The notes under the pieces are model-generated. The model was not told where the DNA came from, searched no databases, and saw nothing but the letters and a program-made list of their open reading frames with translations. Position numbers and translations under genes: made by a program. Shown here piece after piece: positions 13,261 through 28,364 of a stretch of DNA of 64,000 nt. The stretch's first letter is position 1. Each line of letters starts with the position of its first letter. Source of the stretch: Spirochaetaceae bacterium (lineage in GTDB: Bacteria; Spirochaetota; Spirochaetia; Treponematales; Treponemataceae); contig JAGAAX010000023.1 in assembly GCA_017614995.1 (NCBI GenBank), forward strand, positions 1-64,000. The letters are read 5' to 3'.

Positions 13261-13743
13261 TTAAAATTCCATAAAAGGCTTGTCGAATTCTTCTTCAAGC
13301 CAGAGCGTTATGCTTTCTGCAACATCTTCGATTTTTTGAGAACGGTTCTTTCCTCTGATTGAACATTCCCAGACAACGCCCACACGCCAGCCCTGCGCAA
13401 TAAGCTCGTCTATCTCTTTTTTGTCGCGTTCCTTGTTCCGCATGAATTTACTGCGCCAGAATTCCTGATTTGTCTTAGGAAAGTGGAATTTGCTGCATAT
13501 TTTTGAATCTTCGCCTGCCACACCGCTCCAGCCATGCGCGTGCCAGAAACAGCCGTTTACAAAAATAGCAGCATAATAATGCGGCAGCACAATATCAGGA
13601 CAGCCAGCCAAACGCCTGTCATTTTTGCGGAAGCGGAAACCGATTCTATGCAGTGCCGAGCGGATTTCTTTTTCCGGCGAAGTCTCTGTACTTCGGATAT
13701 GGGACATATTTTTGTGACGTTGTGCAAAGGTTAGTTTGTCCAT
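13261..13743 (-). CDS. vsr: Vsr very short patch repair endonuclease
   Basis: A 160-residue protein with the Vsr hallmarks: RHKNMSHIRSTETSPE near the start, FRFRKNDRRLAGCPDIVLPHY with the catalytic Asp, VNGCFWHAHGW, and FWRSKFMRNKERD. It nicks DNA at T:G mismatches formed when 5-methylcytosine deaminates, protecting the sites of a cytosine-5 methyltransferase. It is the last gene of the run that begins with a cytosine-5 methyltransferase at 22.8 kb (16 nt after the AlbA_2 gene), which supports that methyltransferase being its partner. Confidence 0.93.
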   Translation of the reverse strand: MDKLTFAQRHKNMSHIRSTETSPEKEIRSALHRIGFRFRKNDRRLAGCPDIVLPHYYAAIFVNGCFWHAHGWSGVAGEDSKICSKFHFPKTNQEFWRSKFMRNKERDKKEIDELIAQGWRVGVVWECSIRGKNRSQKIEDVAESITLWLEEEFDKPFMEF

Positions 13744-13759
13744 GGTACAGAATTACTCA

Positions 13760-15115
13760 TTATTTTATTTTCCAATAACCGCTGTTTGTTCTACCGATAC
13801 GCTTTACATAACCATTTTCTTTCAGGAAGTCTACATTTTTTTCGATTGCAGTTACGCTGTAGCCAAGTTTTTGTGCAATTGAAGTCATTGAAATGCGGGA
13901 ATCTTCTTCCATAAGTTCAAGAATTCGACGACGTACTTCCGAAAGATTTTTGCGCTGTGATTTCGGAGCAAATTCATTACCCAACTTATTACCCAACTTA
14001 TTACCCAACTTATTACCCAACTTCTGCTCGTCGGCAAAGTCAAATGTTGTTTTCATAAAGTTGCTTGTAAAGGTAAAAATATCGCTCTTGTAATAACTCA
14101 TTATTCTTGTCATGCCTGAACCAAGCTGTTCGACAAGTTCAAGATCGTGAAAAACACGCATTAACTCACGGTTTCGCGGCATAGAACAGCAATTGAAAAA
14201 ATCATCTTTTGAAAGCCCCTCAACAAGTCCGCCGTAAGTTGTAATTACAATTTTATCAGAAAAGATTTCAAAAAGAGGCGGTACTTCCCTTGTATAGTCA
14301 TTATGAACAACCGCATTAATCACAGCCTCACGAAGAGCAATAGGCTCGACAAGATGAGATTCCTTCCGCTCCATCGGAGTAATCTTTGTGCGCGTAACAT
14401 TCGCTACCTGAAGCCGTGTAAGAACAGATTTTACAGCCTTTACAAGACAGCAGTTTCCGAATTCCTCGGACTCAATCAAATCATATTTATCACTTCCAGA
14501 ATAGCGGGCAAGCTTTATCGACATTCCGTTTTCGTCTGCCAAAAGATACGCCGTATAATTGAAACGGCCATCAGGAGTCAAAAGCTCAAGAGACTTTGCA
14601 AACTGACTGTTCAACGGTTTTCCAAGTTCCTCGTAATAAATCTTAAGCTGAGCAAAAGTCAAATCCTGACGTGGAGAAGGAATCTTACCAAGTGAAAGCT
14701 TTGCCCGTGAAGAAAACTGCTCCATAATCATTTTATCAGTCATAGCACGCTTTGAAGAGCCGACACGCAAAAAACAACCGTCACTTGTCATTCCGAATTT
14801 CTTCAGATAATAAGGCTTTTCAGAACCGCTTGAAACTATCAGATGAACCACATCTTTATCATCACGCCTTTCAGCAACAATATCAAAAAGCCCAAGCGTT
14901 GCAGGCTGAATATTGTTTAAGATTTTATCTGCAACCTGACGCTGAACAAGATCAGAATTCTTTACACCAACAACATTCCCGTCATCCGCAATCCCGATAT
15001 ATAAATGTCCACCAGTCTTGGAATTTAAAAACGCAACAACCTCACTCTCAAATGATTCAGAGATTTCCTGCTTGTACTCAATTGTCTGTGATTCGGTATG
15101 AAATTCAGTTTGCAT
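13760..15115 (-). CDS. AlbA_2 / HATPase_c_4 regulator with winged helix
   Basis: A 451-residue protein in the COG2865-like group. The N-terminal AlbA_2 (Schlafen-type) domain reads EYKQEISES ... VVAFLNSKTGGHLYIGIADDG. A degenerate GHKL module (LREAVINAVVHNDYT, GGLVEGLSKDDFF, LELVEQLGSGMTRI) follows. A 4-residue repeat linker then leads to a winged helix ending GRTNSGYWKIK. Such proteins bind nucleic acid and often act as regulators in defence loci. It starts 12 nt after mcrC, so it is in the same operon and may control it. Confidence 0.85.
   Translation of the reverse strand: MQTEFHTESQTIEYKQEISESFESEVVAFLNSKTGGHLYIGIADDGNVVGVKNSDLVQRQVADKILNNIQPATLGLFDIVAERRDDKDVVHLIVSSGSEKPYYLKKFGMTSDGCFLRVGSSKRAMTDKMIMEQFSSRAKLSLGKIPSPRQDLTFAQLKIYYEELGKPLNSQFAKSLELLTPDGRFNYTAYLLADENGMSIKLARYSGSDKYDLIESEEFGNCCLVKAVKSVLTRLQVANVTRTKITPMERKESHLVEPIALREAVINAVVHNDYTREVPPLFEIFSDKIVITTYGGLVEGLSKDDFFNCCSMPRNRELMRVFHDLELVEQLGSGMTRIMSYYKSDIFTFTSNFMKTTFDFADEQKLGNKLGNKLGNKLGNEFAPKSQRKNLSEVRRRILELMEEDSRISMTSIAQKLGYSVTAIEKNVDFLKENGYVKRIGRTNSGYWKIK
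13976..14023 (-). repeat. four 12-bp in-frame tandem repeats
   Basis: Four perfect copies of a 12-bp unit (ATTACCCAACTT on the plus strand) code for repeated NKLG in the linker of the AlbA_2 protein. Any change in copy number stays in frame, so the repeat can change the linker length without inactivating the protein. Confidence 0.95.
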
Positions 15116-15127
15116 GACTTTTATCTC

Positions 15128-17023
15128 CTAATACTTCACAAATAACGGTTTATAGCTTTCTTCGCTTCTGCCACTATCCCGTTTCAGCTTTGCAATATCA
15201 ATGTGTTTATGCTGTCTTATTTCAGTTCCGAGAGAAAAAAGTTTATAAAAATCTCCGATACCATTACTACCAGCCGGATAATTCAATTCACGCATTTTCT
15301 GTGCATCTGCAACAAGAATCTCGGACTGATTAACCGTATATACGAAAAGTTCACCCTCTGGTTTTTCCTTTGATTTTCCTGTGTATATAACAATCCTTGA
15401 CGGAATTATCTGCAAATCCATTCCACGTAAGGCACCCCGACGGTCTCCAAGTCTGACATTATACAGTTTATTTCTCTGAACCCATTCAAGATGCTCTTTT
15501 GAACGGCAGTATCCAATCAGCATATATCTATTGTTAGAATCGATTTTATAATCATCTATCAAAATATCATTTACGTCATCAAATACTTGCATTTCTTTTA
15601 TTTGCACAGAAAAAGGTGTTTTTTTCTGATTCGCCGCAAGACTCATTATCTCACCTATCTGCCGCTTATATCCGTCCCCATGAGTTCCCTCATCTGCAAG
15701 ATTGAACGGATAGACAACAAGTTTCAGCCCATATTTAGCTTTTACTTCCTCATATACAAAAGGCTTAAGCTCTGCCTTAAATTTTTCTGTATAGGGATAA
15801 ACCAGTACAAGTTTTGGAATTATATCAAGAAAATAGCTGTCACCAAGATGATATTTCTGACCATAGGCATAAAGCTGATACATATCCTTTATGTCAATAA
15901 GATAGTTTTTATCGGGCATGGAAGAATCAAGATTTTTCCATTTAGTATCAATAATGATTGTATCATAGGCAGAAAAATTGCCTGCATCCTTTGACTCAAC
16001 AACAATATCCGGGCGCAAGCGGAATTTTCCATGTTCAGTATCGCCATATTTGTCTACAAGAAAATATTTTGAATGCTGGCTTGAAACTGCATAATCTTTT
16101 GCATATTTTTTGAATAAATGAGCTATAAAACTTTCAAAAAGCTTTTCTGCACTAAAAAGCAAAGACTGGTTTACATGGTTTCCGCTGAAAGTTGTGAAAC
16201 CTTTGTTAAGCAGAAACTGACTGCTCCACTGTAAAAGATTTTCATAAGTTGAAAAAAGTCTGTTAGACCGCAATGAAAAATTTAAATCAGCTTCAATATT
16301 TGAACTTGGCGGAATATCAGAAAAAAATGAAAGTAAAGAATAGCAACGATTTATATTGTTAGTAAGTTGTGAAATTTTCGAAAGCTTATATAAAGTCGAA
16401 ACAATAATTCTGTTTTGCGGAATATTCTCTATATATTTCAAATAACGGACTGCAAATTTAGTCTTATCTGCACAGTTTTTTGAAATCTGTTTTTGTATTA
16501 AAAGTTTTCCCTTTAAGAATTTCTGATTTTCTTCAATCTGCGTATAATTCTTCTTTATCCCATCCATCAAAAGCCGTTCAACTTCTGAAAGATAACGGCT
16601 GATATAAACTTCAAGAATAGGAAAATTCTCGCGTGTATCTAAGTTTGCATCTTGAAAAGATTTTGCCTGCGACTGTTGGAAACTTGCAAGCATTTTCAGG
16701 AAAACACGGCGACAAAGTTTTTTGTCATCTTCTTCCATGTTTCCGGTTTTATATATTTTCGGTAAGATTTCTATAACCTGACCGTCTTTAGTCTGGATTG
16801 TACCGACATACCGACCTGTTTTTATATACGGTCTTCCGCCCTTTACATGAACGGACATTACATCATCTGCATCCTGACCGCCTTTGTTTTCAAGAATGAA
16901 ATTCCACAGATTTTCAAAGGTTTTATGTTCAAGCTGAACTTCTTCACCAAGAAAAACACGGTTCTTTGACTTATCGCTGAGAATTCCAAATTCATGAATA
17001 ACTGCAGGCTTTGTTTTTGCCAT
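15128..17023 (-). CDS. mcrC: McrC-family restriction endonuclease subunit, extended
   Basis: A 631-residue McrC homologue. The N-terminal beta domain (HEFGILSDKSKN ... GRYVGTIQTKDGQVIEILPKIY) leads to a helical region. The nuclease core has the PD-(D/E)xK residues as RPDIVVESKD, then IIIDTKWK. E. coli McrC is about 350 residues; here a further domain of about 180 residues follows (YNVRLGDRRGALRGMDLQIIPSR, then ELNYPAGSNGIGDFYKLFSL), of a kind I associate with LlaJI-like subunits. With the upstream McrB it should form a nucleotide-driven restriction complex. It is 17 nt after mcrB. Confidence 0.85.
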   Translation of the reverse strand: MAKTKPAVIHEFGILSDKSKNRVFLGEEVQLEHKTFENLWNFILENKGGQDADDVMSVHVKGGRPYIKTGRYVGTIQTKDGQVIEILPKIYKTGNMEEDDKKLCRRVFLKMLASFQQSQAKSFQDANLDTRENFPILEVYISRYLSEVERLLMDGIKKNYTQIEENQKFLKGKLLIQKQISKNCADKTKFAVRYLKYIENIPQNRIIVSTLYKLSKISQLTNNINRCYSLLSFFSDIPPSSNIEADLNFSLRSNRLFSTYENLLQWSSQFLLNKGFTTFSGNHVNQSLLFSAEKLFESFIAHLFKKYAKDYAVSSQHSKYFLVDKYGDTEHGKFRLRPDIVVESKDAGNFSAYDTIIIDTKWKNLDSSMPDKNYLIDIKDMYQLYAYGQKYHLGDSYFLDIIPKLVLVYPYTEKFKAELKPFVYEEVKAKYGLKLVVYPFNLADEGTHGDGYKRQIGEIMSLAANQKKTPFSVQIKEMQVFDDVNDILIDDYKIDSNNRYMLIGYCRSKEHLEWVQRNKLYNVRLGDRRGALRGMDLQIIPSRIVIYTGKSKEKPEGELFVYTVNQSEILVADAQKMRELNYPAGSNGIGDFYKLFSLGTEIRQHKHIDIAKLKRDSGRSEESYKPLFVKY

Positions 17024-17040
17024 AAAATCAATTTCACTTT

Positions 17041-18336
17041 TTATTCACTGATATGTGAAATAAAGGTTTTTGCTGAATCAACATCAGAAACTTCTGAAAG
17101 TTTAGGATTGAGCTGATAAAACTCTTTTTCATCATCAAAATCGCTCTCTATATTTCTTGATGCAACTTCTGCTTCTTCATCTTTTACATAAAAGTTATTG
17201 TCTGAATTATCTTTTTCATTCAAAACCTGTCTGATTTTCTGTGCATCATTGTAAAAGTATTCTTCCAAGAGTGGAATGACACAATTTTTTAGAGCATTGA
17301 AAATATTGAGGTCTGATTCTACATCAATAAAATATGAATGTCCGATTTGGTGGTCTTTATCTAGCAGACAGCGGATACGGGCATTTATTGCTTTGAGAAT
17401 GTTTTTCGCAGTTTCATTTTTAATACTACTATAATCAGGCAAAAGCTCCTCAAAACGGAAGCGCCTGCGCAAAGCAGAATCAAGCAACTGGATTGAACGG
17501 TCGGTAGTATTCATAGTGCCGACAATCATAAGATTTGCAGGAACAGCAAATGCTTCTTTTGAATACGGGAGCTGAACAATCATTTCGTTTTTTGCACCAA
17601 TTCGTTTGCTTGGCTCTATCAAAGAAATCAAATCACCAAATACAGCAGACACATTTGCACGGTTTATTTCATCAATGCAAAGAAGAACAACTTTTTTAGC
17701 ATTAATTGCTTCGGACATTTTCTGTTTTTTATCATCGACAGAGGCTTTTACACATTCTGCAAGCGAAACAAATCCAGCAATAACGGCAGTTCTTTCACAA
17801 GCCTGATAGAAAACACCTTTTTCTATTGTGTATTTTACATCTGAAGATTGATTGCTTACACCCTGCTCAGTTGCAAGCACAGGTTTTAAACCTTCAACAA
17901 ATTCCTCATAACTAAACGACTGATGAAATGTTGTTACGAAACAATCATCTTTAGAAAACCTGTCAATGTATTCATGTTGCATTTGGTAAGTTTTGCCTGT
18001 GCCGGGTGGACCGTAAAGGATCAGAGGTGAAATATCAGTAGAAAGAATATCAAGTTTAACATTCTTCTGTTGTTCTTGCTCATCAAGTGTTTTGTATTCA
18101 AATAATGAATTATTTTCTCTGCTTAACAAAGTAAATAATGCTCGTATATTATCGGCATCAAAAGAAATTGATTGTGAAACCTTATCAGGATTAGCTCTAT
18201 TAGCACTTCCATATGTATCAATTTGGAAAAGGAATTTATCGCCATTATTATTTATTGAATATGTTGCCTTCACAGGTTCTTGTTCACGAATATCCTTTTC
18301 TCTTTTTTCCATTTCATTTACATTTATGAAAGCCAT
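17041..18336 (-). CDS. mcrB: McrB-family AAA+ GTPase/ATPase
   Basis: About 431 residues. Walker A GPPGTGKT (residues 109-116), Walker B LLCIDEINRA, and the McrB signature MNTTDRS followed by ALRRRFRF. The N-terminus has a small FQIDTYGS-R--P-K-SQ module seen in other restriction proteins, in place of the E. coli 5-methylcytosine reader, so its recognised mark may differ. I chose ATG 18336, six bases after GGTGAGG; the GTG at 18351 lies in that ribosome-binding site. It begins 22 nt after the CHAT-like gene and feeds straight into mcrC. Confidence 0.88.
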   Translation of the reverse strand: MAFINVNEMEKREKDIREQEPVKATYSINNNGDKFLFQIDTYGSANRANPDKVSQSISFDADNIRALFTLLSRENNSLFEYKTLDEQEQQKNVKLDILSTDISPLILYGPPGTGKTYQMQHEYIDRFSKDDCFVTTFHQSFSYEEFVEGLKPVLATEQGVSNQSSDVKYTIEKGVFYQACERTAVIAGFVSLAECVKASVDDKKQKMSEAINAKKVVLLCIDEINRANVSAVFGDLISLIEPSKRIGAKNEMIVQLPYSKEAFAVPANLMIVGTMNTTDRSIQLLDSALRRRFRFEELLPDYSSIKNETAKNILKAINARIRCLLDKDHQIGHSYFIDVESDLNIFNALKNCVIPLLEEYFYNDAQKIRQVLNEKDNSDNNFYVKDEEAEVASRNIESDFDDEKEFYQLNPKLSEVSDVDSAKTFISHISE

Positions 18337-18358
18337 ATCTAACCTCACCAAATGATAA

Positions 18359-18967
18359 CTATATTAAAATCGAAGAATCTCCATAACAAACTAAACTATC
18401 TCTATTTTCCAAAAGCAGAGAAGCATGCAACATATCTGAATTATATAATACATCAATTTCGTCTGTGTATTTTTCTTTAGCTAGATTTAACGAATCCTGC
18501 ACGGATTTCTTCCCAGACAAACAACTTAAAAAAACTTCTAAAGGTAAATAGAAATAATCTTGAAATTTAGGAAGAGTTTGAATGATAATTTCTTTATTAT
18601 GCCCCACAAAGCACTTCGCTCCATGTTCACATATATTTTTACCAAACTGACATGCAGATAAACAGGAAAAATTGTAAACAATATTTGCATCTTTCCAACA
18701 ATTATCATCTGTATCGCAACCGACGTAATGTTGTGCATCTACAATTAAACCGTCTTCTTCTCCATGTGTAAAAGCAAAAAAATTAAATGGTGAAAAATCT
18801 GAATTACTTATAGTCATATTAAAAACTATGTTATTTTTTAGCTTTTGAGATGTTAAAACCTTTATATTAGATTCTTCATTGAATAAAGAAACTGCATAAT
18901 CTGCACATTTATTAAAAAAAGAACCTAATTTGTTATCTTCTTCATCTTTTGTTATCAGTAAATTCAT
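18359..18967 (-). CDS. minimal caspase/CHAT-like cysteine peptidase
   Basis: A 202-residue protein with little outside one domain. The sequence has the clan CD pattern in order: a hydrophobic strand with His-Gly (FFAFTHGEEDG, H68), then FSCLSAC with the likely catalytic Cys106, then GAKCFVGH, a FLSCLSGKKSVQDSLNLAK helix, and a C-terminal YGDSSILI that matches the GDPSL end of CHAT and gingipain-like domains. I infer a protease, probably silent until activated. It begins 4 nt after the receiver gene and is followed by mcrB, so it is probably the protein-cutting effector of this operon. The first 50 residues are unassigned. Confidence 0.65.
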   Translation of the reverse strand: MNLLITKDEEDNKLGSFFNKCADYAVSLFNEESNIKVLTSQKLKNNIVFNMTISNSDFSPFNFFAFTHGEEDGLIVDAQHYVGCDTDDNCWKDANIVYNFSCLSACQFGKNICEHGAKCFVGHNKEIIIQTLPKFQDYFYLPLEVFLSCLSGKKSVQDSLNLAKEKYTDEIDVLYNSDMLHASLLLENRDSLVCYGDSSILI

Positions 18968-18971
18968 TGTA

Positions 18972-19571
18972 TTACAAACTCTCTTTATTTCTGCTAATCA
19001 AATCCACTGTCAAACGAAGTATCCGATTTATGAATTGTTTTCCTACAAAAGAACTCTGTTTTAATTCTTCTGAAATCTGATTCAAAGAATAGTGTTTACC
19101 ATCGACAGTAAAAATATACGAATCTTTCTTTTCCTCTTCTGGGTGAGCATCCAACCATTCTGTCAAAGCAGCAGCTACATTATTTTGTACCATTTCTGCA
19201 CAACGTTTTACTTTTTCTACAAACTCTTCATTTGAAGTTGTCTTTGTAATATAAGCATTTGTATCAAGATTGATAAAATCAGGAATTAACTGAGACGGTT
19301 CATCCGCACCGGTAAAAATAATAACAGGTATTAAAAGCGATATTTCTCGTATTTTCCTTAAAATATCAATTCCCTGCATCTGACCGCTTCCAAATGATAA
19401 ATCCAACACAATGATTGACTGAAATAAAATTGCAGGATCTTGATCTAGAGCATCAAAAAAATCTTTTCCTGTCTTATAAAATACGGGTTCAATGTCGGGA
19501 AGTTTAATTGTTGTCATTACAATAGCAGGATCATCAGCCTGAAAATTATCATCAATAATTAAAAGCTTCAT
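18972..19571 (-). CDS. receiver-domain protein with unknown output region
   Basis: A 199-residue protein. Residues 1-125 form a phosphoreceiver: acidic pair in LLIIDDN, phospho-acceptor Asp57 (IIVLDLSFG), Thr87 (IIFTGAD) and Lys110 (YITKT). The remaining 70 residues (ALTEWLDAHPEEEKKDSY, then TVDGKHYSLNQISEELKQ) are mainly helical and are not a standard DNA-binding output that I recognise. Its ATG overlaps the stop of the kinase gene (ATGA), and the peptidase gene follows after 4 nt. The likely role is to pass the kinase signal to the peptidase or to McrBC, rather than to a promoter. Confidence 0.8.
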   Translation of the reverse strand: MKLLIIDDNFQADDPAIVMTTIKLPDIEPVFYKTGKDFFDALDQDPAILFQSIIVLDLSFGSGQMQGIDILRKIREISLLIPVIIFTGADEPSQLIPDFINLDTNAYITKTTSNEEFVEKVKRCAEMVQNNVAAALTEWLDAHPEEEKKDSYIFTVDGKHYSLNQISEELKQSSFVGKQFINRILRLTVDLISRNKESL

Positions 19572-21760
19572 TTTTTACCTCTTGAATATGGGATTGACAG
19601 CAAGAAAGTTACACCTTCAGGAGCAAATTCACTATCAATTAGTTCTATTTTTCCTTGAACTGCCTCTAAACGAGTTTTTACTATATATAAACCAAGCCCT
19701 GCACCACCTTTCGCGGCTGTTGTTGTAAAGAAAATATCAAATATTCTCTCTTTATCAGCCTCTGAAATTAATGGTCCATTGTTTGAATAAAAAATTTTAA
19801 GTTCGTTCTTATCATTCTGAACACGAATTTTAATTTTTCTATTATCCGGCTTTCCTGCGAAAGCTTTCATAGTATTAGATATCAGATTATCAAATATATC
19901 ATTCAGTGCTTTTCTATTGTATTTTATGGATACAGTATCATCTACAAAACATGAAAGCTCGATTTGTTCTTTTTCAAATTCATCTTTATAAATTACTTCA
20001 AATAAATATAAAAAAAAGTCTTTAAGATTTATTGGCTCGAAATCATTACCGTCCTTTGAATACCTTAATAAAAAATCGACAGATTTATCAAGATTCTCCA
20101 TTTCCGTAAAAATTCTTGTGGCATATGATTTACAATTATTTCTGTAATCAACATTATCTATCATATCTCGGATAAATTCTGCACTACGTTTAATTCTTCC
20201 TAATAATGTCCTCACAATATGAGATAACATTCCTGCATAGGTCTGCAAAGAAACAAGGCTAAACATTAATTCTTCTTGACGTTCTTTTTCCTTTTTTGTT
20301 TCGATTAAACTTCTATGTGTTTTTGTTAAAGCTCCTTGCAATTTACTTAATTCTGATGAAAGTACATTTAAGTTCTGTTTTACATTTTCATCATCTGTGT
20401 TTGTATTAGCAATAATTGCCCTTAAATTAGCAATAGAATCTTTAGAATCCTTAAAACTCTTTTCTTCTTGTTTTTTGTTTTTATCCTTTAAGTTTTTTCT
20501 CTGTTTCTCTAAAACAGAAATTACTTCTATAATAAACTTCTGTAATTCGAGCCAAGCTTCATTTTCTACAAATCCCTGTCTATTTGTTGCTTCAATTATA
20601 TCTGGATTATCAGCTTCTGTAATATCTATCCAACCTAACAAGTCACGAGAACTTATTTTATCAAAGAATCCAGACCAGCGACGCTTATCAATTCCAAATA
20701 AATCTTTCTGATAATCTATCTCTTCCTGAGAATCAACAAAAGGAGTTGTTAGAATTCCATCACGATATATTTTAATTCCAGTTAACTGCTCTTCTGGATA
20801 TATCTTATGAAATTTTTGCTTTGCATTAATATCATAATAATAAAGATGAAGATTGATTAAACCAAAAATCCTTTTATTCTTTTTTGAAATGGATAAATTA
20901 CCCTCTTTGTCAATAGTTAGAACATCCTGCAACTGTTTTTTAGAATCGAACCCCAATTTTATAGCAGTTGTAGCAATTTCCTCAAGTGCAAAACTTTCAA
21001 CAACTTTGTTTTTATAGTTATTTGTTTCTGGAGCAATAATTTTTAAATTAAACGGGTATTTCAGTTTTTTTTCTGGAACTATTAAAGTTGATAATACTTT
21101 GTATAATCGAGAAATATCTTCTTCTGTCCATGGATCGCGAATTTTTGAGATAATAAGCTCGGTACCTTTATCAAAAACAGGTTGTTCATACCAATAAATG
21201 TTTTCGACATCGGTAAAAAATTTTTTGGATTCTAAATCTTCTTCATTTTCTGTCTTGACAGAAGGATTATGTTCTGCCGTTTTTTCAGTGCCGCTCTGAA
21301 ACAAAGTTATTTGTTCTAATTCTAATTTTTCATATTTTGACCAATCATTTTCAAGGCAGAAAAGCTCGCTATCTTTGCTTTGCTTTGTTTTGAGAATAAG
21401 ACTATTACCTAATTTATCGACAGCAAATCTACCAATTCCCTTTTTTCCGACCAATCTTCTGTTATACGGATCATCAGAAATAAAAACAGTTCTTTTATTA
21501 TCGGTTCCAATAACCATCCATTTGTTTTTTACATCAGAAAAAGACATGCCTTTTCCATCATCTCTAATAATAATTTTACTTTCTGCGCTACCTACATTTT
21601 GTATATTTTGAAATTCAATTTCAACATTTTCAGCATTTGCATCATATGAATTTTTTACTAGTTCAAAAACAGCCGTTATTTTATCTGTAATTAATTCACG
21701 ACCAATGAGACGAAAGGCACTTACATCAAAATTAAATTTTAAACTCTCATTATTATTCAT
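19568..21760 (-). CDS. dual GHKL protein: N-terminal Hsp90/MORC-type ATPase, C-terminal histidine kinase
   Basis: 730 residues with two ATP-binding folds. The first is Hsp90/MutL/MORC-like: VFELVKNSYDA (33-41), RDDGKGM (67-72), GKKGIGRFAVDKLG (105-118). A middle region and a coiled coil (about 410-500) follow. The C-terminus is a histidine kinase: H-box SLQTYAGMLSHIVRT with His514, N-box DIFDNLISNTMKAF, and GGAGLGLYIVKTRLEAVQG. There is no membrane segment, so it senses something in the cytoplasm. It overlaps the methyltransferase gene by 8 nt and the receiver gene by 4 nt. GHKL ATPases of the first type are known in restriction-modification operons, which fits a DNA-sensing role. Confidence 0.85.
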   Translation of the reverse strand: MNNNESLKFNFDVSAFRLIGRELITDKITAVFELVKNSYDANAENVEIEFQNIQNVGSAESKIIIRDDGKGMSFSDVKNKWMVIGTDNKRTVFISDDPYNRRLVGKKGIGRFAVDKLGNSLILKTKQSKDSELFCLENDWSKYEKLELEQITLFQSGTEKTAEHNPSVKTENEEDLESKKFFTDVENIYWYEQPVFDKGTELIISKIRDPWTEEDISRLYKVLSTLIVPEKKLKYPFNLKIIAPETNNYKNKVVESFALEEIATTAIKLGFDSKKQLQDVLTIDKEGNLSISKKNKRIFGLINLHLYYYDINAKQKFHKIYPEEQLTGIKIYRDGILTTPFVDSQEEIDYQKDLFGIDKRRWSGFFDKISSRDLLGWIDITEADNPDIIEATNRQGFVENEAWLELQKFIIEVISVLEKQRKNLKDKNKKQEEKSFKDSKDSIANLRAIIANTNTDDENVKQNLNVLSSELSKLQGALTKTHRSLIETKKEKERQEELMFSLVSLQTYAGMLSHIVRTLLGRIKRSAEFIRDMIDNVDYRNNCKSYATRIFTEMENLDKSVDFLLRYSKDGNDFEPINLKDFFLYLFEVIYKDEFEKEQIELSCFVDDTVSIKYNRKALNDIFDNLISNTMKAFAGKPDNRKIKIRVQNDKNELKIFYSNNGPLISEADKERIFDIFFTTTAAKGGAGLGLYIVKTRLEAVQGKIELIDSEFAPEGVTFLLSIPYSRGKK

Positions 21761-22817
21761 ATTCTAATATCCGGGAAAAAATTACTTTTGAAAGGAGCGG
21801 AGGAACTGCATTTCCGATTTGCTGCTGAATTTCACTAATTGAACCTTCAAATATGTAATCATCTGGAAAGCTCTGTAATCGCGCAGCTTCTCGTACTGAT
21901 AACCCGCGATCCTGAGTCGGATGTATCAACATATTCTTACGATAATTAGAAATAACAACAGAAGGTTCGTTATTATTTAAACGCTTATAAATTCCACTAT
22001 GACAACGAGCCATATCTTTATAATTTGTCATTAATTCTTTCGGAATAGATTTCCAATTCTCTCCTTGCCCTATATACGCATATCTTTTTATAACAAGTTC
22101 GCTGTTTTTTGATACATAATTCTGTCTTGCCATATTAGATTTTCCACGCATTAATTTCATATAATTAGAAAGTTTACAATCTATATAATTACATTCTTCT
22201 TTCATATCACCATTTTGTAATTCTGGTAAATCAGAAATTGCATCCCCAACAGAAACAAACGATGGATTCCCTTGAGGAAATTCAAAATCTATATTATGCC
22301 TATTAGCTACAAGAATAAATCTTTTTCTTTTTTGAGGAACTCCAAAATCAACTGAATTTAATATTGTTTTTTTAGAACGATAACCACATGAATTTAAATC
22401 ATCAACAATTTTTCTAACTATCTTACCATTATCAAAATTGTAAATTCCTTGAACATTCTCTATTACTACCCAAACAGGTTTTAACTCATGCACCAAACGA
22501 AGGAATTCTAAATATAACCTATTTTTGGGATTAGAATTATTTCTTGTTTTTTGATTTGAAGTAGAAAAACCTTGGCAAGGAGGTCCACCAAAAAGAATAA
22601 ATAAATTATCTAAATTCGGGAAACTGTTTTTATCTAATCTTGCGATATCTTCATTTAATACAAGTGAACTAGAATGATTTTTTTTATAAGTTAATGAAGC
22701 GGATTTATCAAGTTCAACAGCATATTGTACATCTATGCCAGCCCATTCTGCACCAAGGCTAAGACCTCCTGCACCAGAGAACAAATCAACTCCCGAAAAG
22801 TTCTTGCCATTAGACAT
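21753..22817 (-). CDS. DNA cytosine-5 methyltransferase
   Basis: About 354 residues with all main C5 methyltransferase motifs: I DLFSGAGGLSLG, IV GGPPCQGFS with catalytic Cys81, VI VIENVQG, VIII QKRKRFILVANR, then RGLSVREAARLQSFPDDY and X QIGNAVPP. The target-recognition region between VIII and IX is short. I chose ATG 22817, which sits 7 nt after TATAAT; the upstream ATG at 22853 would lie in the promoter. It heads the eight-gene operon, and should mark host sites so that McrBC or a related nuclease can tell self from foreign DNA. Confidence 0.93.
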   Translation of the reverse strand: MSNGKNFSGVDLFSGAGGLSLGAEWAGIDVQYAVELDKSASLTYKKNHSSSLVLNEDIARLDKNSFPNLDNLFILFGGPPCQGFSTSNQKTRNNSNPKNRLYLEFLRLVHELKPVWVVIENVQGIYNFDNGKIVRKIVDDLNSCGYRSKKTILNSVDFGVPQKRKRFILVANRHNIDFEFPQGNPSFVSVGDAISDLPELQNGDMKEECNYIDCKLSNYMKLMRGKSNMARQNYVSKNSELVIKRYAYIGQGENWKSIPKELMTNYKDMARCHSGIYKRLNNNEPSVVISNYRKNMLIHPTQDRGLSVREAARLQSFPDDYIFEGSISEIQQQIGNAVPPLLSKVIFSRILEYE

Positions 22818-22824
22818 AGTTTTT

Positions 22825-22853
22825 ATTATATCTTTTTTCCTTTTTATACACAA
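22825..22853 (-). promoter_or_regulatory. promoter of the eight-gene defence operon
   Basis: On the minus strand TTGTGT (22853-22848), a 17-nt spacer, TATAAT (22830-22825), then 7 nt to the ATG at 22817 with no Shine-Dalgarno. This is the only clear promoter I see before the run of closely spaced genes that ends at 13261. Confidence 0.6.
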
Positions 22854-23028
22854 GTTTTTTATTTAAATTTGTATTTTATAATTCTTCAAAAATATATCTA
22901 TAAATTGATTTAACTATCACTACAAAACAGCAAAACAATATAGAAACATTTGATAAAACTTTTTATTTAAATCTTTACTATCACATCTGAATGCACTCTT
23001 AGCACCAATAATGTCTTTTCAAAAAACA
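22854..23028. other. AT-rich spacer between the ATPase/HNH pair and the defence operon
   Basis: About 175 bases, very AT-rich. No open frame, hairpin or repeat that I can support, apart from the adjoining operon promoter at its left edge. Confidence 0.5.
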
Positions 23029-24003
23029 TTAATCTAATAAATCTTTTTTTAATTTTAGTAAATTACAATGTCTATTTTCATCAAAATTCCTTCGAAAAAT
23101 AATTTCTTCCAAGTGTTCTGAAGAAATTATACCTTTAAATTGTTTCGTCATTTCTTGAATTTTGGAAGATGGATAATTTCTTTTTAAATCCATTATTGAT
23201 AAAGCTTCTGCTAAAATTGAAGTTGAATTATATCGCTGATTTAATCTAAAAGCTTTAATCTCATGTTCATAAATTTCATTAGCACTAAAATTTATCTGAT
23301 ATGAATCAATATTTTTTAAATATCCAATTTTTGTTGAGAAACCAACTTTTGGTAATACATAAATTTTTGCATTTTTGTTAAACTCATATTGATCACAAGT
23401 TGGAGAAATTTGTAATAATATTTTCATTTGTTCATTTTGAGATTGTTTATTTATACCATAAAACCTTAAAAAATTATTTCGATTTTTTATTCTACTATTA
23501 CAAGCTGAACAGGCTGGCACAAGATTTCTAAGAGATAATGCTAAAATAGGACATTGATCTTTTGGGAAAAAGTGATCTAAATCAAGAGTAATTCTATTTG
23601 CTCCATTCTTTTTTTTATAATTAGTAACTGGTTCGATTTCACAATAACAACAAGAATATAAATCTAAGCTAGATGTATTTTCAAAAAAGAATTTAATTAT
23701 ATTAGAATAATATTGTGAATAATCAAAAATTAATAATTTTGAATTGCTGCCATCAATCCGTTTAATTAAACCTTTTTCAACATCTTTATTTCTTTTAATA
23801 AGATTTATCCATTCAAAATACCATTTCATTAATTTACTAAAATCTGCTGTTATTATTTTTTTTACATCAGAAGGAAAAATATATAATTCTGTATAAATAT
23901 CACGAATAATATCCCATTTATCTTGAATATCATTTAGATCTTTAGAGGAAAAATATTTTAAATATTCTAAACTTACATTTTCTGTATAATTAATTCTTCT
24001 CAT
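23029..24003 (-). CDS. HNH endonuclease, PtuB-like partner of the ATPase
   Basis: A 324-residue protein with a zinc-ribbon HNH nuclease at residues 118-176: a CCYCE cysteine pair, the metal-binding Asp-His in LDLDHFFPK (D143, H144), NLVPACSACNS with N160 and the second cysteine pair, then KNRNN. The first 110 residues are helical. It overlaps the end of the ATPase gene by 14 nt, so the two are translated together. This order of ATPase followed by HNH is that of the Septu anti-phage system, where the nuclease cuts DNA or RNA once the ATPase is triggered. Strongly AT-rich, so probably acquired by transfer. Confidence 0.8.
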   Translation of the reverse strand: MRRINYTENVSLEYLKYFSSKDLNDIQDKWDIIRDIYTELYIFPSDVKKIITADFSKLMKWYFEWINLIKRNKDVEKGLIKRIDGSNSKLLIFDYSQYYSNIIKFFFENTSSLDLYSCCYCEIEPVTNYKKKNGANRITLDLDHFFPKDQCPILALSLRNLVPACSACNSRIKNRNNFLRFYGINKQSQNEQMKILLQISPTCDQYEFNKNAKIYVLPKVGFSTKIGYLKNIDSYQINFSANEIYEHEIKAFRLNQRYNSTSILAEALSIMDLKRNYPSSKIQEMTKQFKGIISSEHLEEIIFRRNFDENRHCNLLKLKKDLLD

Positions 24004-26038
24004 CTATTTCCGCTTTTTGTTTTTTTAAATCATTAATAATATTTTCATAATAGTTAATTTTTCTATCAATAAATTTTATGTTGCGTTTAGAATCTATCAT
24101 TTCTTGTAATGCATTTTTTAAATAAACATCACCAATTTTATTAATAAAATTATTATAGAATTCATAATCATTTGCCAGCGGCTCATTATTTTGATATTTA
24201 CTAATTATGTTTTCTATAAAAATTCTTGAAGTTTCACCTATAGTTGATGTCATAAAAAATTGATTTTCGAGCAAATCATAAATATTTGCACCTAATGTTT
24301 CATTTAATTTTTCAGATACAGAACCATGTTCAAGTGCTAAAATATTAGCACGAGGTATATCACTTAGGATAAAAGGAGAATGAGTTACAAGTGTTATATT
24401 GATTCCACTTATATCTAAATTACCACGATTAAATATTTTTATAATGTCATTGATAAATCGCCTTTGATATTCTGGATGATAATACAGTTCTGTTTCATCA
24501 AATACAACATTAAAGTATTTATAAGGAATTTTTCCACTTTGATTTCCATATCTATTACTTTGTGCATTTTTAATATGATAAATAATATAACTCAATGAAT
24601 TATATAATTGTTGTTCTCCAGAACTCATATCGGATAATTCCATGATTGTTTTTTCATTTTCATCTTTAGGATTGTTTCCATTATCAGGTTTAATCTTTAA
24701 AGTATTATCAATAATTTCTTTTTTATATTCATAATAAAAATGCCATTCGAAAAAATCAGGCAATAACAAAATAAACATTTCATCATATAAGTGTGCATCT
24801 TTTACTAATGGATCCTTATAAAAATCAGTTATTTTTAATTCATTTTGAATATCAGGTTTATATAAGTTAATACAAGTATGTTCGAGAAATTTTTTACACA
24901 TTAAAATTTTTAAATTAATATAATTTATATTGCTTTCATCCCAGAGCTCTGTTTCAATTGTATTTTTTATTAATTCGTGTAATTTAGGTAAATTTATTTG
25001 ATTCGTCGTTAAATCAGTTATCTCATTAAATCTTAATGTATTTGATACTGATTCATAATTAAGAAAGACTTTTAGCGTTTTATATATTAAATATTCTTTG
25101 CAATATTCCTTTAAAGAGAAATCTTTATAATTGGAATCAAAAAAAGCAGTCCAATAAACACGCAAGTAAGAACAAATATAATTAAATCGTATAGGATATT
25201 GTTTTTGATCTTGTAAATACAATGTTGTATACTTGCTATGGCAGAGGTCATCTATTTTTTCTGCAATAATTTCTTTATAATATTTTAAATCTTTTAATTT
25301 ATATAAAAATTTATATGGAATGAAATTTTCTATAAAATCGTTTCCGTCTTTAAATAATAATATTGATAATGTTTGTACTCTTTTCTCAGCTAGTTTTTTT
25401 TCACGTTCCATTTCAATATCACCATTAATTCGATACGGAACTAAAACTATAGGTGTAAAATAACCGTCATTTTTATGATAAAGTTTCTCTTTCCATTTTG
25501 GATAATCTGTATAAATACTGTAATTACAAGTTATTGTATAAAAAGAATAATTTGATAAATTTTCAAGAGTTTTTATTTTGTCAAATAAATCACAGTTTTC
25601 TTCATTAGAGAATTCTACATCATTATTGTTAATTCTTATACAATGAATTATGTTTTTAATCTCATAAAACAATTCTGCTTTTAAGTTTTTTATTGGAATA
25701 ATTTTATAACATTTATTATTATCAGGAAATTTTTCTTTTATTTTAATTGCAAAATTATTAATGATTCTATTCTGGATATCTAATAATGTTGATTTTCCAG
25801 AACCATTTTTTCCAACTATGGCATTTATTGAGAATTCTTGTTTATTATTTTTATAATCATAGAATTGTTTTAGGTTTTTATTCTGTTTTTCATATTCTTT
25901 TTTTATTTTTGCAGGTTTTCCAGCTTTATATATTTCATGAAGATTCTGTTTTTCATAAAAGCCATACCATGTTTTGTTTGTTAAATTTTTTCTTACATTA
26001 TCTTCTGCTTCTTCAAGATATATTCCAAGTATTTGCAT
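23990..26038 (-). CDS. ABC/SMC-type AAA ATPase, PtuA-like
   Basis: A 682-residue ATPase of the AAA_15/AAA_21 (OLD-like, SMC-like) type. Walker A VGKNGSGKST (76-84); after a long helical middle region, the signature LSDMSSGEQQ, Walker B YFNVVFDETELYYHPEYQ, and the switch LVTHSPFILSDIP. The last part is a coiled coil. With the HNH gene it forms a Septu-like pair, but it is longer than the PtuA proteins I know, so it could be a distinct subtype. Its ATG lies inside the truncated HEPN frame, 137 nt downstream of the MNT stop, and no separate promoter is clear. Confidence 0.8.
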   Translation of the reverse strand: MQILGIYLEEAEDNVRKNLTNKTWYGFYEKQNLHEIYKAGKPAKIKKEYEKQNKNLKQFYDYKNNKQEFSINAIVGKNGSGKSTLLDIQNRIINNFAIKIKEKFPDNNKCYKIIPIKNLKAELFYEIKNIIHCIRINNNDVEFSNEENCDLFDKIKTLENLSNYSFYTITCNYSIYTDYPKWKEKLYHKNDGYFTPIVLVPYRINGDIEMEREKKLAEKRVQTLSILLFKDGNDFIENFIPYKFLYKLKDLKYYKEIIAEKIDDLCHSKYTTLYLQDQKQYPIRFNYICSYLRVYWTAFFDSNYKDFSLKEYCKEYLIYKTLKVFLNYESVSNTLRFNEITDLTTNQINLPKLHELIKNTIETELWDESNINYINLKILMCKKFLEHTCINLYKPDIQNELKITDFYKDPLVKDAHLYDEMFILLLPDFFEWHFYYEYKKEIIDNTLKIKPDNGNNPKDENEKTIMELSDMSSGEQQLYNSLSYIIYHIKNAQSNRYGNQSGKIPYKYFNVVFDETELYYHPEYQRRFINDIIKIFNRGNLDISGINITLVTHSPFILSDIPRANILALEHGSVSEKLNETLGANIYDLLENQFFMTSTIGETSRIFIENIISKYQNNEPLANDYEFYNNFINKIGDVYLKNALQEMIDSKRNIKFIDRKINYYENIINDLKKQKAEIDEKN

Positions 26039-26174
26039 TTTTTTCCTCAGACTGCTGGCAATGGTAACAGATTATTTCATACGGTTTCGGATACATGGTA
26101 TTAAAAAGGTGATTTGCTGTGTCTAAATCCATATTTGCAAATCGCAGCCATTCTTTTACATCGTCCTCATGCAT
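26013..26174 (-). pseudogene. HEPN toxin cut off at its middle (hepT remnant)
   Basis: From ATG 26174 the frame reads HEDDVKEWLRFANMDLDTA and then ICYHCQQSEEK, which is the N-terminal half of a MNT-paired HEPN protein (the family usually continues QQ-AEKALKALL for 60-70 more residues). Here homology ends at EEK and the next bases are the start of the ATPase gene, followed by a stop. The R-x4-6-H ribonuclease motif of the missing half is absent, so the toxin should be dead. The start overlaps the MNT stop by 8 nt, the usual arrangement of this toxin-antitoxin pair. Confidence 0.75.
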
Positions 26175-26478
26175 ACAAAACAACTCCTTCCTCAAGAACA
26201 GTACGTTCCAATGTTGTCATTTTGCTGCGTTCTTCAAATTTAGAAGCTGTATTTACAACGATATCTACAGGTTTACGATCGATATCAAGAAGACTGATAT
26301 ATGCTTCTTGAGTAGCATGGAGGATATTTTGAGTTGAATCAGGCATAATCAAATAAAAATCGTAGTCACTGTTTTCGTTGTAAGTATCTCTTGCATAAGA
26401 ACCGAATAATATAATCTTTTCGGGATGAAGAGCTTCAACAAATCTGTCTTTTATGGCTAAGATTTCATTGTTTATCAT
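26167..26478 (-). CDS. MNT nucleotidyltransferase (antitoxin of a MNT-HEPN pair), orphaned
   Basis: A 103-residue minimal nucleotidyltransferase: LFGSYARDTYNENSDYDFYLI holds the GS and the DxD metal residues. Members of this family AMPylate a tyrosine in the HEPN toxin to silence it. Here the toxin is truncated, so the enzyme has no full partner in the window. It has a strong GGAGG ribosome-binding site and its own promoter, and is the first gene in front of the Septu-like pair. Confidence 0.85.
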   Translation of the reverse strand: MINNEILAIKDRFVEALHPEKIILFGSYARDTYNENSDYDFYLIMPDSTQNILHATQEAYISLLDIDRKPVDIVVNTASKFEERSKMTTLERTVLEEGVVLYA

Positions 26479-26501
26479 AACTTATACCTCCATTAACTTT
26501 T

Positions 26502-26510
26502 ATTATAGCA
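26502..26510 (-). promoter_or_regulatory. extended -10 promoter before the MNT gene
   Basis: On the minus strand TGCTATAAT, 23 nt upstream of the ATG at 26478, with GGAGG in between. It probably drives the MNT gene, the HEPN remnant and the ATPase/HNH pair, since no separate promoter is clear for the pair. Confidence 0.5.
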
Positions 26511-26530
26511 TAGTTTTGAAAAAAAATTCA

Positions 26531-26638
26531 TCAGGTCTGGGGAATGTATATTTGAGAATATAAGGCTCTTAAAATATCCAGCTTGTTGATGTTGCTTAAA
26601 ACAATCAGAGGCGTTGAATTGACAATTACTCTAGGCAT
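26531..26638 (-). pseudogene. DUF3368 PIN-domain toxin, cut to 35 codons
   Basis: The ATG at 26638 overlaps the stop of the UPF0175 gene. The frame reads PRVIVNSTPLIVLSNIN and continues LDILRALYSQIYIPQT, then stop. This is the typical start of the DUF3368 (PIN) partner of UPF0175, with the first catalytic Asp replaced by the NSTPL motif of this family. The remaining 110 or so residues are absent; the MNT promoter begins 21 bases further on. Confidence 0.75.
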
Positions 26639-26885
26639 TGTTCATCTCTTCTAGAAATTCTTTATTGTCTTCAAATTGAAAAATAGATATACGATTCTCG
26701 CTAAGGTATTTTATGAAGTCTTCTTCCGAAAGATCTGCTATCTGTGCGCAATAACCCAGAGATACATGAAAATGAAGATAATAATGCATGGCAATTATTT
26801 TCTTTGCCAACTGTTCTGACTGACTTTCAGTCATGTGAGTATCATACAAAACAGCATCTGGGATTTTTACAGCAAACTGACACAT
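26631..26885 (-). CDS. UPF0175 family antitoxin
   Basis: An 84-residue protein starting at ATG 26885, seven bases after GGAGG. An in-frame upstream ATG at 26924 lies next to the promoter and has no ribosome-binding site. The C-terminal part, VSLGYCAQIADLSEEDFI then ISIF, matches the UPF0175 pattern (ISLGKAAELAGMS-EEF). These are DNA-binding antitoxins paired with DUF3368 toxins, and the truncated DUF3368 frame directly follows with overlap. Confidence 0.8.
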   Translation of the reverse strand: MCQFAVKIPDAVLYDTHMTESQSEQLAKKIIAMHYYLHFHVSLGYCAQIADLSEEDFIKYLSENRISIFQFEDNKEFLEEMNNA

Positions 26886-26924
26886 GCTATTACCTCCAAA
26901 AATCTCAATATCCGCGATTAACAA

Positions 26925-26933
26925 ATTATATCA
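26925..26933 (-). promoter_or_regulatory. extended -10 promoter for the UPF0175 gene
   Basis: On the minus strand TGATATAAT, 39 nt before the preferred ATG at 26885. Confidence 0.45.
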
Positions 26934-27014
26934 GATAATTTGTATTTTGCCAGAATAATATCTCTTAGTCTTTATTTTTTAATACAGACTTTGGCGGATT
27001 TCTACATTTTTTTA

Positions 27015-28364
27015 TCATCTACTTTCAATCAAACTTACATACTCACCAATCTTGCCTGCCAGAAACAGCGGCAGGTTTATGATCGTATAAGGATTTTTGC
27101 CGATTGGAGTGACGGCTTTTTCCACAGAATATTCGCCGGAATACAGGCGGACAGCAAGTTTTGTGCCTGTCTGGTCTATGTATGAATGGAGCGAGCGCAG
27201 AGTGCCTGTTTTACCGGACTTTACCTCAACAGGGATGATTTTTGAATCCTTTATTATAAGAAAATCCAGCTCTGCATTAGAACGAACTTCTTCCCTTACC
27301 CAAAAGAGAGGTGGCTTCATTTCATAAAAAGTTGAGGCAAGAAGTTCCTGACCGGTAATCTGTTCAGCAATCATTCCGTTGTACATAGAGTCAATTGATT
27401 CTTCGGTAAGATATGTTCCCTGAATCCCTGTGGAAAAATTTACAAGACCTGTGTCCAAAAACTGAAGACGAGGTTTTCGCTTTGTGTCTGTTTGTAATGG
27501 AAGCTGCAAATCGGTCGTCGGATAACGAAGATAAATCAGCATTGCCCTCTGTAATTTGCGCAGAGCCTCTCCAGCATCACGTGAGCGGTAACTTGTATTT
27601 GCAAAACGCTCAAATGTAATTCTTTTTCCTGTTTCTTTTGGGGCTGCCTCAATAAACTGAGTTAATATCTGTTCTTCGGTTTTATTGGACGCATACTTGG
27701 CAACGTCATCAATATAAGAAGTAAAAAGATTCCTGTAAACTGAGGAAACTTTTGTAATGTCCCCGGTATTGATGAACTTTGCGACTGCCTCAGGCATTCC
27801 ACCGACAAGAGTATATGTTTTGTAAAGTCTTGATAATGACGGAACAGCCCAACGCTGAATTGGAACTTCTTCCAAAAGTGAAAGAGCCTGCGTTTCTCCT
27901 GCAGCCAGAAGAAATTCCATGAATGTCATCGGATAAAGGTAAAGATATTCCACACGTCCAACTGGAAAACTTATTTTATGTTTCTCCATTATGATTTCCA
28001 AAAGAGAGCCTGCGCTGATTACATATAGTTCGGGCATTTCTTCGTAAAAGTACCTGAGCAAAGCGATTGCCTGCGGTGAATTTTGGATTTCATCTAAAAA
28101 AAGAAGTGTTTTGCCCTTTGGTTCGATTTTTTTCTCAAGACAGATTTTTTGAAATGTGATTTTTGGATTCAATTCGTCCGTAAAGAATGTTCTGTTATCG
28201 CTTTTCTCAAGGTTAAGCTGAATGAAAGTGTCAAAAGTCTTTCCAAAATCCTTGATGACAGTGGTTTTTCCTACTTGGCGGGCACCACGAATGACAAGAG
28301 GCTTGTGCTCACCGCTGTTTTTCCATTCTTCAAGTCCCTTGTAAATATTCCTTTGAAAAGCCAT
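27015..28364 (-). CDS. AAA_14 ATPase with DUF4143 domain
   Basis: A 449-residue protein. The N-terminus is the AAA_14 ATPase: Walker A RGARQVGKTT, Walker B LLFLDEIQNSPQAI, sensor SAGSLLEI. The C-terminus is DUF4143, with a PD-(D/E)xK-like ending (VRSNAELDFLIIKDSK, then IPVEVKSGKTG). The family is common in anaerobes and often found beside toxin-antitoxin genes; its function is not established. It has an AGAGGAG ribosome-binding site. Four 33-bp direct repeats lie immediately upstream. Confidence 0.85.
   Translation of the reverse strand: MAFQRNIYKGLEEWKNSGEHKPLVIRGARQVGKTTVIKDFGKTFDTFIQLNLEKSDNRTFFTDELNPKITFQKICLEKKIEPKGKTLLFLDEIQNSPQAIALLRYFYEEMPELYVISAGSLLEIIMEKHKISFPVGRVEYLYLYPMTFMEFLLAAGETQALSLLEEVPIQRWAVPSLSRLYKTYTLVGGMPEAVAKFINTGDITKVSSVYRNLFTSYIDDVAKYASNKTEEQILTQFIEAAPKETGKRITFERFANTSYRSRDAGEALRKLQRAMLIYLRYPTTDLQLPLQTDTKRKPRLQFLDTGLVNFSTGIQGTYLTEESIDSMYNGMIAEQITGQELLASTFYEMKPPLFWVREEVRSNAELDFLIIKDSKIIPVEVKSGKTGTLRSLHSYIDQTGTKLAVRLYSGEYSVEKAVTPIGKNPYTIINLPLFLAGKIGEYVSLIESR

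Follow-up and report, generated by a model that had tools for sequence, protein, structure and literature searches.

A methylase-linked histidine kinase with two GHKL modules and a candidate phosphorelay to a predicted caspase-like effector in a Spirochaetaceae bacterium

A DNA methylase, a histidine kinase with two different GHKL ATPase modules, a response regulator and a small protein, p202, lie side by side in the window analysed here, that is, the whole stretch of 64,000 nucleotides taken from contig JAGAAX010000023.1 (assembly GCA_017614995.1). We incline, somewhat beyond an even balance, to understand this set as a methylase-guarded, phosphorelay-gated effector system, acting in abortive infection or in restriction, and the differing killer proteins to which relatives of the kinase are predicted to pass their signal suggest an alarm against phages, not gene regulation of the usual kind. 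More tentatively, and with rather less than even confidence, we propose that it belongs to a class where a MORC-like DNA clamp would be the input of a kinase and where a relay would arm interchangeable effectors (predicted HNH nuclease, HEPN-like RNase, MBL-fold protein or caspase-like protease) via matched adaptors, the window holding the caspase-armed form. Domains, conserved residues, gene order, co-inheritance and the matching of adaptor to effector are read directly from the sequence.

The operon and the two ATPase modules of its kinase

The unit runs in the order methylase, kinase, regulator, p202, McrB, McrC, AlbA_2 protein and Vsr, with gaps of -8, -4, 4, 7, 17, 12 and 16 nt. Scans for promoters and terminators did no better than shuffled sequences, so that the limits of the operon rest on these gaps. 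Its features, in window coordinates, are as follows.

21753 to 22853, minus strand: C5 cytosine DNA methyltransferase, 366 aa (PF00145, 1.2e-69), overlapping the kinase start by 8 nt
19568 to 21760, minus strand: double-GHKL histidine kinase, ATG start, 730 aa
20492 to 21733, minus strand: kinase N-module, MORC/Hsp90-like GHKL plus S5, residues 10-423 (E33, D67, G108/G110, R394)
20219 to 20221, minus strand: codon of the phospho-acceptor His514, invariant in 91/91, with Ile515 next
19586 to 19915, minus strand: C-terminal HATPase_c of the kinase, residues 616-725 (Pfam, 6.3e-21), G1 box SNNGPLI with Asp changed to Asn660
18972 to 19571, minus strand: response regulator, 199 aa, REC (PF00072, 6.5e-9) plus C-terminal adaptor, overlapping the kinase by 4 nt
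18978 to 19133, minus strand: C-terminal adaptor of the regulator, residues 147-198 (leave-one-out HMM, 8.2e-10)
18359 to 18967, minus strand: p202, predicted caspase/CHAT-like effector, 202 aa (His68-Gly69, Cys102)
17041 to 18351, minus strand: McrB-like AAA GTPase, 7 nt from p202, absent from the viral cassette L049
15128 to 17023, minus strand: McrC-like component (PF10117, 8.8e-76)
13760 to 15115, minus strand: Schlafen AlbA_2 plus HATPase_c_4 plus winged HTH protein (Pfam)
13261 to 13743, minus strand: Vsr mismatch endonuclease (PF03852, 1.7e-28)

The AlbA_2, HATPase_c_4 and winged HTH architecture has been linked to BREX loci (PMC12839542). Directly upstream of the methylase, 175 nt away, an AAA ATPase and HNH pair (23029-26038) matches the candidate defence system PDC-M62, and GC content drops to 0.23-0.31, from about 0.42, over positions ~18000-26000 (within 16000-28000); this low-GC stretch would fit a defence island gained by horizontal transfer.

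That one protein joins two different GHKL modules, the first of Hsp90/MORC type, was proposed in the preliminary description of this DNA, which named domain-level profile searches as a check. These bear the proposal out: in Pfam, residues 29-150 match HATPase_c_3 (E 2.1e-20) and residues 616-725 match HATPase_c (PF02518; E 6.3e-21), both far beyond chance. The N-module carries ELVKNSYDA, DDGKGM and GKKGIGR, with Glu33 at the place of the catalytic glutamate of Hsp90 and MORC, and residues 8-132 match the NCBIfam BbrUII/HgiDII restriction enzyme (1.5e-17); the C-module carries SHIVRT, which includes His514, together with N625/N629 and GGAGLGL, and the CA domain matched by PF02518 has its N, G1, F and G2 boxes, the G1 aspartate being Asn660 in the window copy. 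In an AlphaFold2 model built from 49 relatives (pLDDT 82.6), His514 falls within helix 458-533 of a DHp helix hairpin, and a long helical linker, residues 401-533, lies between the two modules. The top rows of a Foldseek search of this model against the PDB are histidine kinases interspersed with MORC2, SMCHD1, MORC3 and Hsp90. VIA-align superposes residues ~10-423/430 on MORC3 (Z 22.6, 298 aligned, 3.2 A), with Z ~21.6 for Hsp90 and 19.5 for TopoVI-B against the N-module, and residues ~504-727 on histidine kinases (Z ~20). On these matches, the N-module (residues 10-423) comprises GHKL plus S5, and not the GHKL fold alone. Most relatives have in S5 the motif G-h-x-h-Y-R-x-G, akin to GhXhhpXXRhl of MORC with its arginine displaced by one position; the window kinase has GIKIYRDGILTT there. 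Judged by the motif, R394 probably corresponds to the arginine of S5 with which Hsp90-type enzymes complete their split ATPase.

The kinase looks soluble, as had been proposed, the Pfam search recognising no PAS, HAMP or transmembrane family, and it has no obvious sequence-reading domain. As the N-module is the sole folded part in the input position, it is reasonable to regard it as the sensor. By analogy, DNA clamping is a plausible sensing step, made attractive by the MORC fold and the presence of modification genes; the modelled fold match to MORC, SMCHD1, Hsp90 and TopoVI-B would fit the sensing of DNA, protein or nucleotide alike.

Conservation was followed in 91 aligned sequences, part of them viral relatives; a scan of viral contigs had returned 80 relatives. 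Loss of catalytic residues across the family, which had been named beforehand as what would speak against two ATPases, is not seen: every sequence has E33, N37, D67, G69, G108, G110, R394, H514, N629 and G688, and 85 of the 91 retain D660. The viral relatives were retrieved by motif patterns of the N-module, so that its conservation among them is partly by construction, His514 and the C-module not having served as bait; conservation of the N-module agrees in the relatives retrieved with the kinase protein itself. The window kinase departs from this picture in having Ile515 after His514, Asn660 for Asp and Leu664 for Gly in the G1 box. The residue that follows the histidine is acidic in 75 of 91 kinases (74/79 outside the window's clade, 1/12 inside it), and the 'true H-box' previously claimed stands for the histidine itself, not for its acidic neighbour, lost in the window as in 11 of the 12 clade members. 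On account of these features, the activity of the window kinase may be weak. The same features speak for another reading, which we hold to be very doubtful, where the C-module would be a pseudokinase that does not phosphorylate and where the MORC-like ATPase would signal allosterically, via the coiled coil, to regulator and effector. His514, N625/N629 and the G2 glycines are, however, retained, the window regulator has its Asp57, acidic pair and Lys110 intact, and L049, the nearest relative, keeps Asp660.

Methylase linkage and a minimal cassette

A methylase lies within -1 to +3 genes at 75 of 90 kinase loci, as against 11 of 328 control genes, these counts being approximate since they come from sequence-motif calls. 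Kinase distances correlate (Mantel) with those of the C5 methylase (0.64), the N6/N4 methylase (0.87) and the regulator (0.83), the observed value being reached by 0 of 2000 permutations in each of the three comparisons, while methylase class (C5 or N6/N4) switched just 3 times on the tree. Methylase, kinase and regulator are co-inherited.

The smallest form of the cassette is found on the viral contig L049, where methylase, kinase, regulator and p202 stand in the window order, with nothing else and without McrBC. Compared with the window, its dcm scores 414 bits, its kinase 611 bits (46% identical), its regulator 68.5 and its p202 87.7. McrBC is therefore not obligatory, and its candidacy as an essential part is not supported. 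This matters for an explanation that we regard as distinctly unlikely, according to which the kinase and regulator would switch on the McrBC (LlaJI-like) nuclease encoded downstream, or act as its specificity gate, all of them making a single phosphorylation-controlled machine in which p202 would process a McrBC subunit. McrB and McrC do follow at 7- and 17-nt gaps, and L031 and L033, from the window's own phylum and clade, likewise adjoin methylases, McrB and RE_LlaJI; yet at L049, L070, L107 and L022, where kinase, regulator and caspase-like gene are all present, the neighbours listed include no McrB or McrC match, and unrelated systems do cluster in defence islands.

Further searches returned little: a scan of genome contigs with the kinase gave one weak match to the C-module, scans of viral contigs with p202 or the regulator alone gave no homologue beyond L049, and plasmid searches with p202 and with the regulator found nothing. 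In the Stenotrophomonas rhizophila plasmid CP031730.1 (L022 10093-11423), the regulator and the caspase-like gene are missing from the gene table. An HhH-GPD glycosylase or a Vsr gene, both typical companions of 5-methylcytosine systems, follows the kinase-regulator pair at L030 11521-12183, L032 506-1249 and L038 14230-14640. A double-GHKL kinase is also found on the Candidatus Chlorohelix plasmid NZ_CP128402.1 (L029 7641-10073), in a phosphorothioation-type locus, with a cysteine desulfurase, DUF4007, a BrxC-like ATPase and a PAPS reductase as neighbours, so that methylases are not the sole partners of such kinases.

The regulator, its adaptor and the effector genes

Most relatives have a receiver gene next after that of the kinase, and Asp57 is kept in 87 of 88; the window receiver has D7, D8, D57, T87 and K110. 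The kinase-receiver pairing of the preliminary description is thus upheld by a cognate receiver, with Asp57, beside the kinase, and what that description missed is the output side, namely the caspase-like gene and the adaptor of the regulator.

A protein of about 200 residues with an HG...C motif is encoded after the regulator in the window, L049, L022, L070 and L107. When an HMM was made from the last 62 residues of these five regulators, each being left out in turn, the omitted member was recovered every time, at 8.2e-10 for the window and at 3e-12, 7e-6, 7e-5 and 1.5e-5 for the others; the best of 83 other kinase-linked partners had an E of about 0.5 or worse, and the nearest non-member (E 0.08-2.6) came from L045, where it neighbours a p202 homologue without a kinase. 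The adaptor is therefore present exactly where a caspase-like gene follows, in 5/5 such regulators and in 0/83 others, the five cases amounting to two or three lineages on the tree. L070 (caspase-like) and L031 (HEPN-like) are sister kinases with unlike effectors. The simplest reading of this matching would have the regulator in contact with the effector and arming it. At L045 (7855-9112, G027), the gene before the p202 homologue encodes a protein of 204 aa whose C-terminus weakly resembles the adaptor, and the gene after it an N-type DNA methylase; no kinase gene lies among them, and the adaptor and effector may, as a pair, serve other sensors.

p202 has no Pfam match, no known-family profile passes its cut-off, and in six divergent homologues the only invariant columns besides Met1 are His68, Gly69 and Cys102. 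Compared by hhalign, the family matches CHAT at 4.7e-4, in an alignment of 137 columns that brings His-Gly and Cys into register, and C14 at 3.4e-3, the controls REC and HNH giving 0.034 and 0.77; against PDB chains, the family profile finds caspase-2 (E 0.034). An AlphaFold2 model from four sequences is poor (pLDDT 47.9), and its Foldseek and VIA lists, led by flavodoxin-like folds with two caspase-6 rows at Z 5.9-6.0, were not counted as evidence. Taken together, the short motif and weak profile matches on which the assignment rests support, and do not prove, a caspase-like peptidase. Another small HG...C protein, of 180 aa, is encoded at L174 6763-7305 (G029) with no kinase nearby, and a wider family of uncharacterised HG...C proteins may exist.

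Other branches of the kinase tree have other outputs. In one, a separate HNH nuclease gene follows (HNH, 3.8e-7); in another, the gene of an MBL-fold protein. In the window's clade, all seven long regulators have an RNxxxH C-terminal domain fused to the receiver, as against 4/60 elsewhere; members match DUF4145 (3.6e-4), HepT-like (2.9e-3) and HEPN_MAE_28990 (0.11) in Pfam, which together with the motif gives the signature of a HEPN-like RNase. A search of the phylum with the HEPN profile PF18737 was silent everywhere, controls included, and is hence uninformative.

It is against this diversity that one may weigh a more conventional explanation, in our opinion an unlikely one without being far-fetched, that the two-component system adjusts how strongly the restriction-modification genes beside it are expressed, p202 being an accessory. 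This is the hypothesis published for HEF_HK and Response_reg_2 (PMC8011034), and it would suit the close packing of methylase, McrBC and Vsr into one operon with the pair, as well as the retention of the H-box histidine and the receiver. Pfam, however, recognises no DNA-binding domain in the window regulator, the partner domains of the regulators are HEPN-like, HNH, MBL and caspase-like, the regulator C-terminus tracks the type of effector, and the minimal cassette has no McrBC.

A candidate relay and its place among known systems

The effector system that we favour would have as its core a four-gene modification-guarded alarm, made of DNA methylase, double-GHKL kinase, regulator and effector. 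We infer its phosphotransfer, sensor ligand, N-module closure, p202 activation, proteolysis and role in defence. The N-module would sense a state linked to infection, the most plausible candidates being unmodified or foreign DNA, the methylase bound to such DNA, or both; its ATP-driven dimer closure would alter the coiled coil and switch the kinase module, and phosphate would pass from His514 to the regulator's Asp57. The regulator, which would not mainly be a transcription factor, would engage the adjacent p202 through its adaptor and turn it on, and p202 would then abort infection through cleavage of a protein, which may be p202 itself, the McrBC machinery or a target in the host. In other branches, the relay would drive an HNH nuclease, a REC-fused HEPN-like RNase or an MBL-fold protein.

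Detocs, a two-component anti-phage system with a histidine kinase, receiver domains, swappable toxic effectors and a TPR-type sensor, resembles this scheme in logic only, as a kinase and receiver driving swappable effectors. It is not known to carry a methylase, whereas here a MORC-like ATPase and a methylase are present. With LlaJI/McrBC systems, the window, L031 and L033 share adjacent McrB/McrC genes, which are not in the minimal cassette L049. MORC and paraMORC ATPases have been described in restriction-modification loci (Iyer et al. 2008, PMC2292703), and the GHKL plus S5 module adjoining methylase and Vsr recalls them, BbrUII/HgiDII included; the module is here fused to a histidine kinase and not to a nuclease. 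A survey of HEPN domains (PMC3710099) reports HEPN (Ymh) fused to paraMORC in such loci, which likewise couples a GHKL sensor to a HEPN effector; in the sister lineages L031/L033/L066/L084/L100, a His-Asp relay would stand between the two.

The closest precedent is found in Bellieny-Rabelo et al. 2021 (PMC8011034), who describe kinases made of HATPase_c_3, HEF_HK and HATPase_c, adjoining genes for Response_reg_2, C5 methylases and Vsr, and propose the N-terminal GHKL in the sensor position. The dual-ATPase architecture and its link to restriction-modification are already published there. The window shares with HEF_HK/Response_reg_2 (PF19191/PF19192) a soluble HATPase_c_3, DHp and HATPase_c kinase with a receiver, a C5 methylase and Vsr alongside. 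The window kinase has, however, no PF19191 match at E<=1 (the best score in the whole genome, 11.9 bits against a cut-off of 24.1, lies elsewhere), and membership of HEF_HK was rejected on this ground; it stands on a separate tree branch, and its receiver matches PF00072, not PF19192. Homology (119.5 bits) nevertheless links the window kinase to L037, a true HEF_HK (4.2e-24) whose partner matches PF19192 (2.5e-21). Because of this homology in the absence of a PF19191 match, we place the window kinase, by sequence comparison, on a separate branch of the same family as HEF_HK, as a variant and not a member. The accessible part of that paper (PMC8011034) describes neither effector genes matched in this way nor adaptors on the regulator, and a literature search, made mostly outside subscription papers, found no description of these effector associations; the new part appears to be the output, with effector genes and matched regulator adaptors.

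HEF_HK-type systems were described in 2021 with their output not known (PMC8011034). If the relay arms effectors directly, these kinases would gain a concrete function. If true, this would also show an Hsp90/MORC clamp working as the sensor of a kinase, and would unite restriction-modification, two-component signalling and caspase-like or HEPN suicide effectors, themes that are usually separate.
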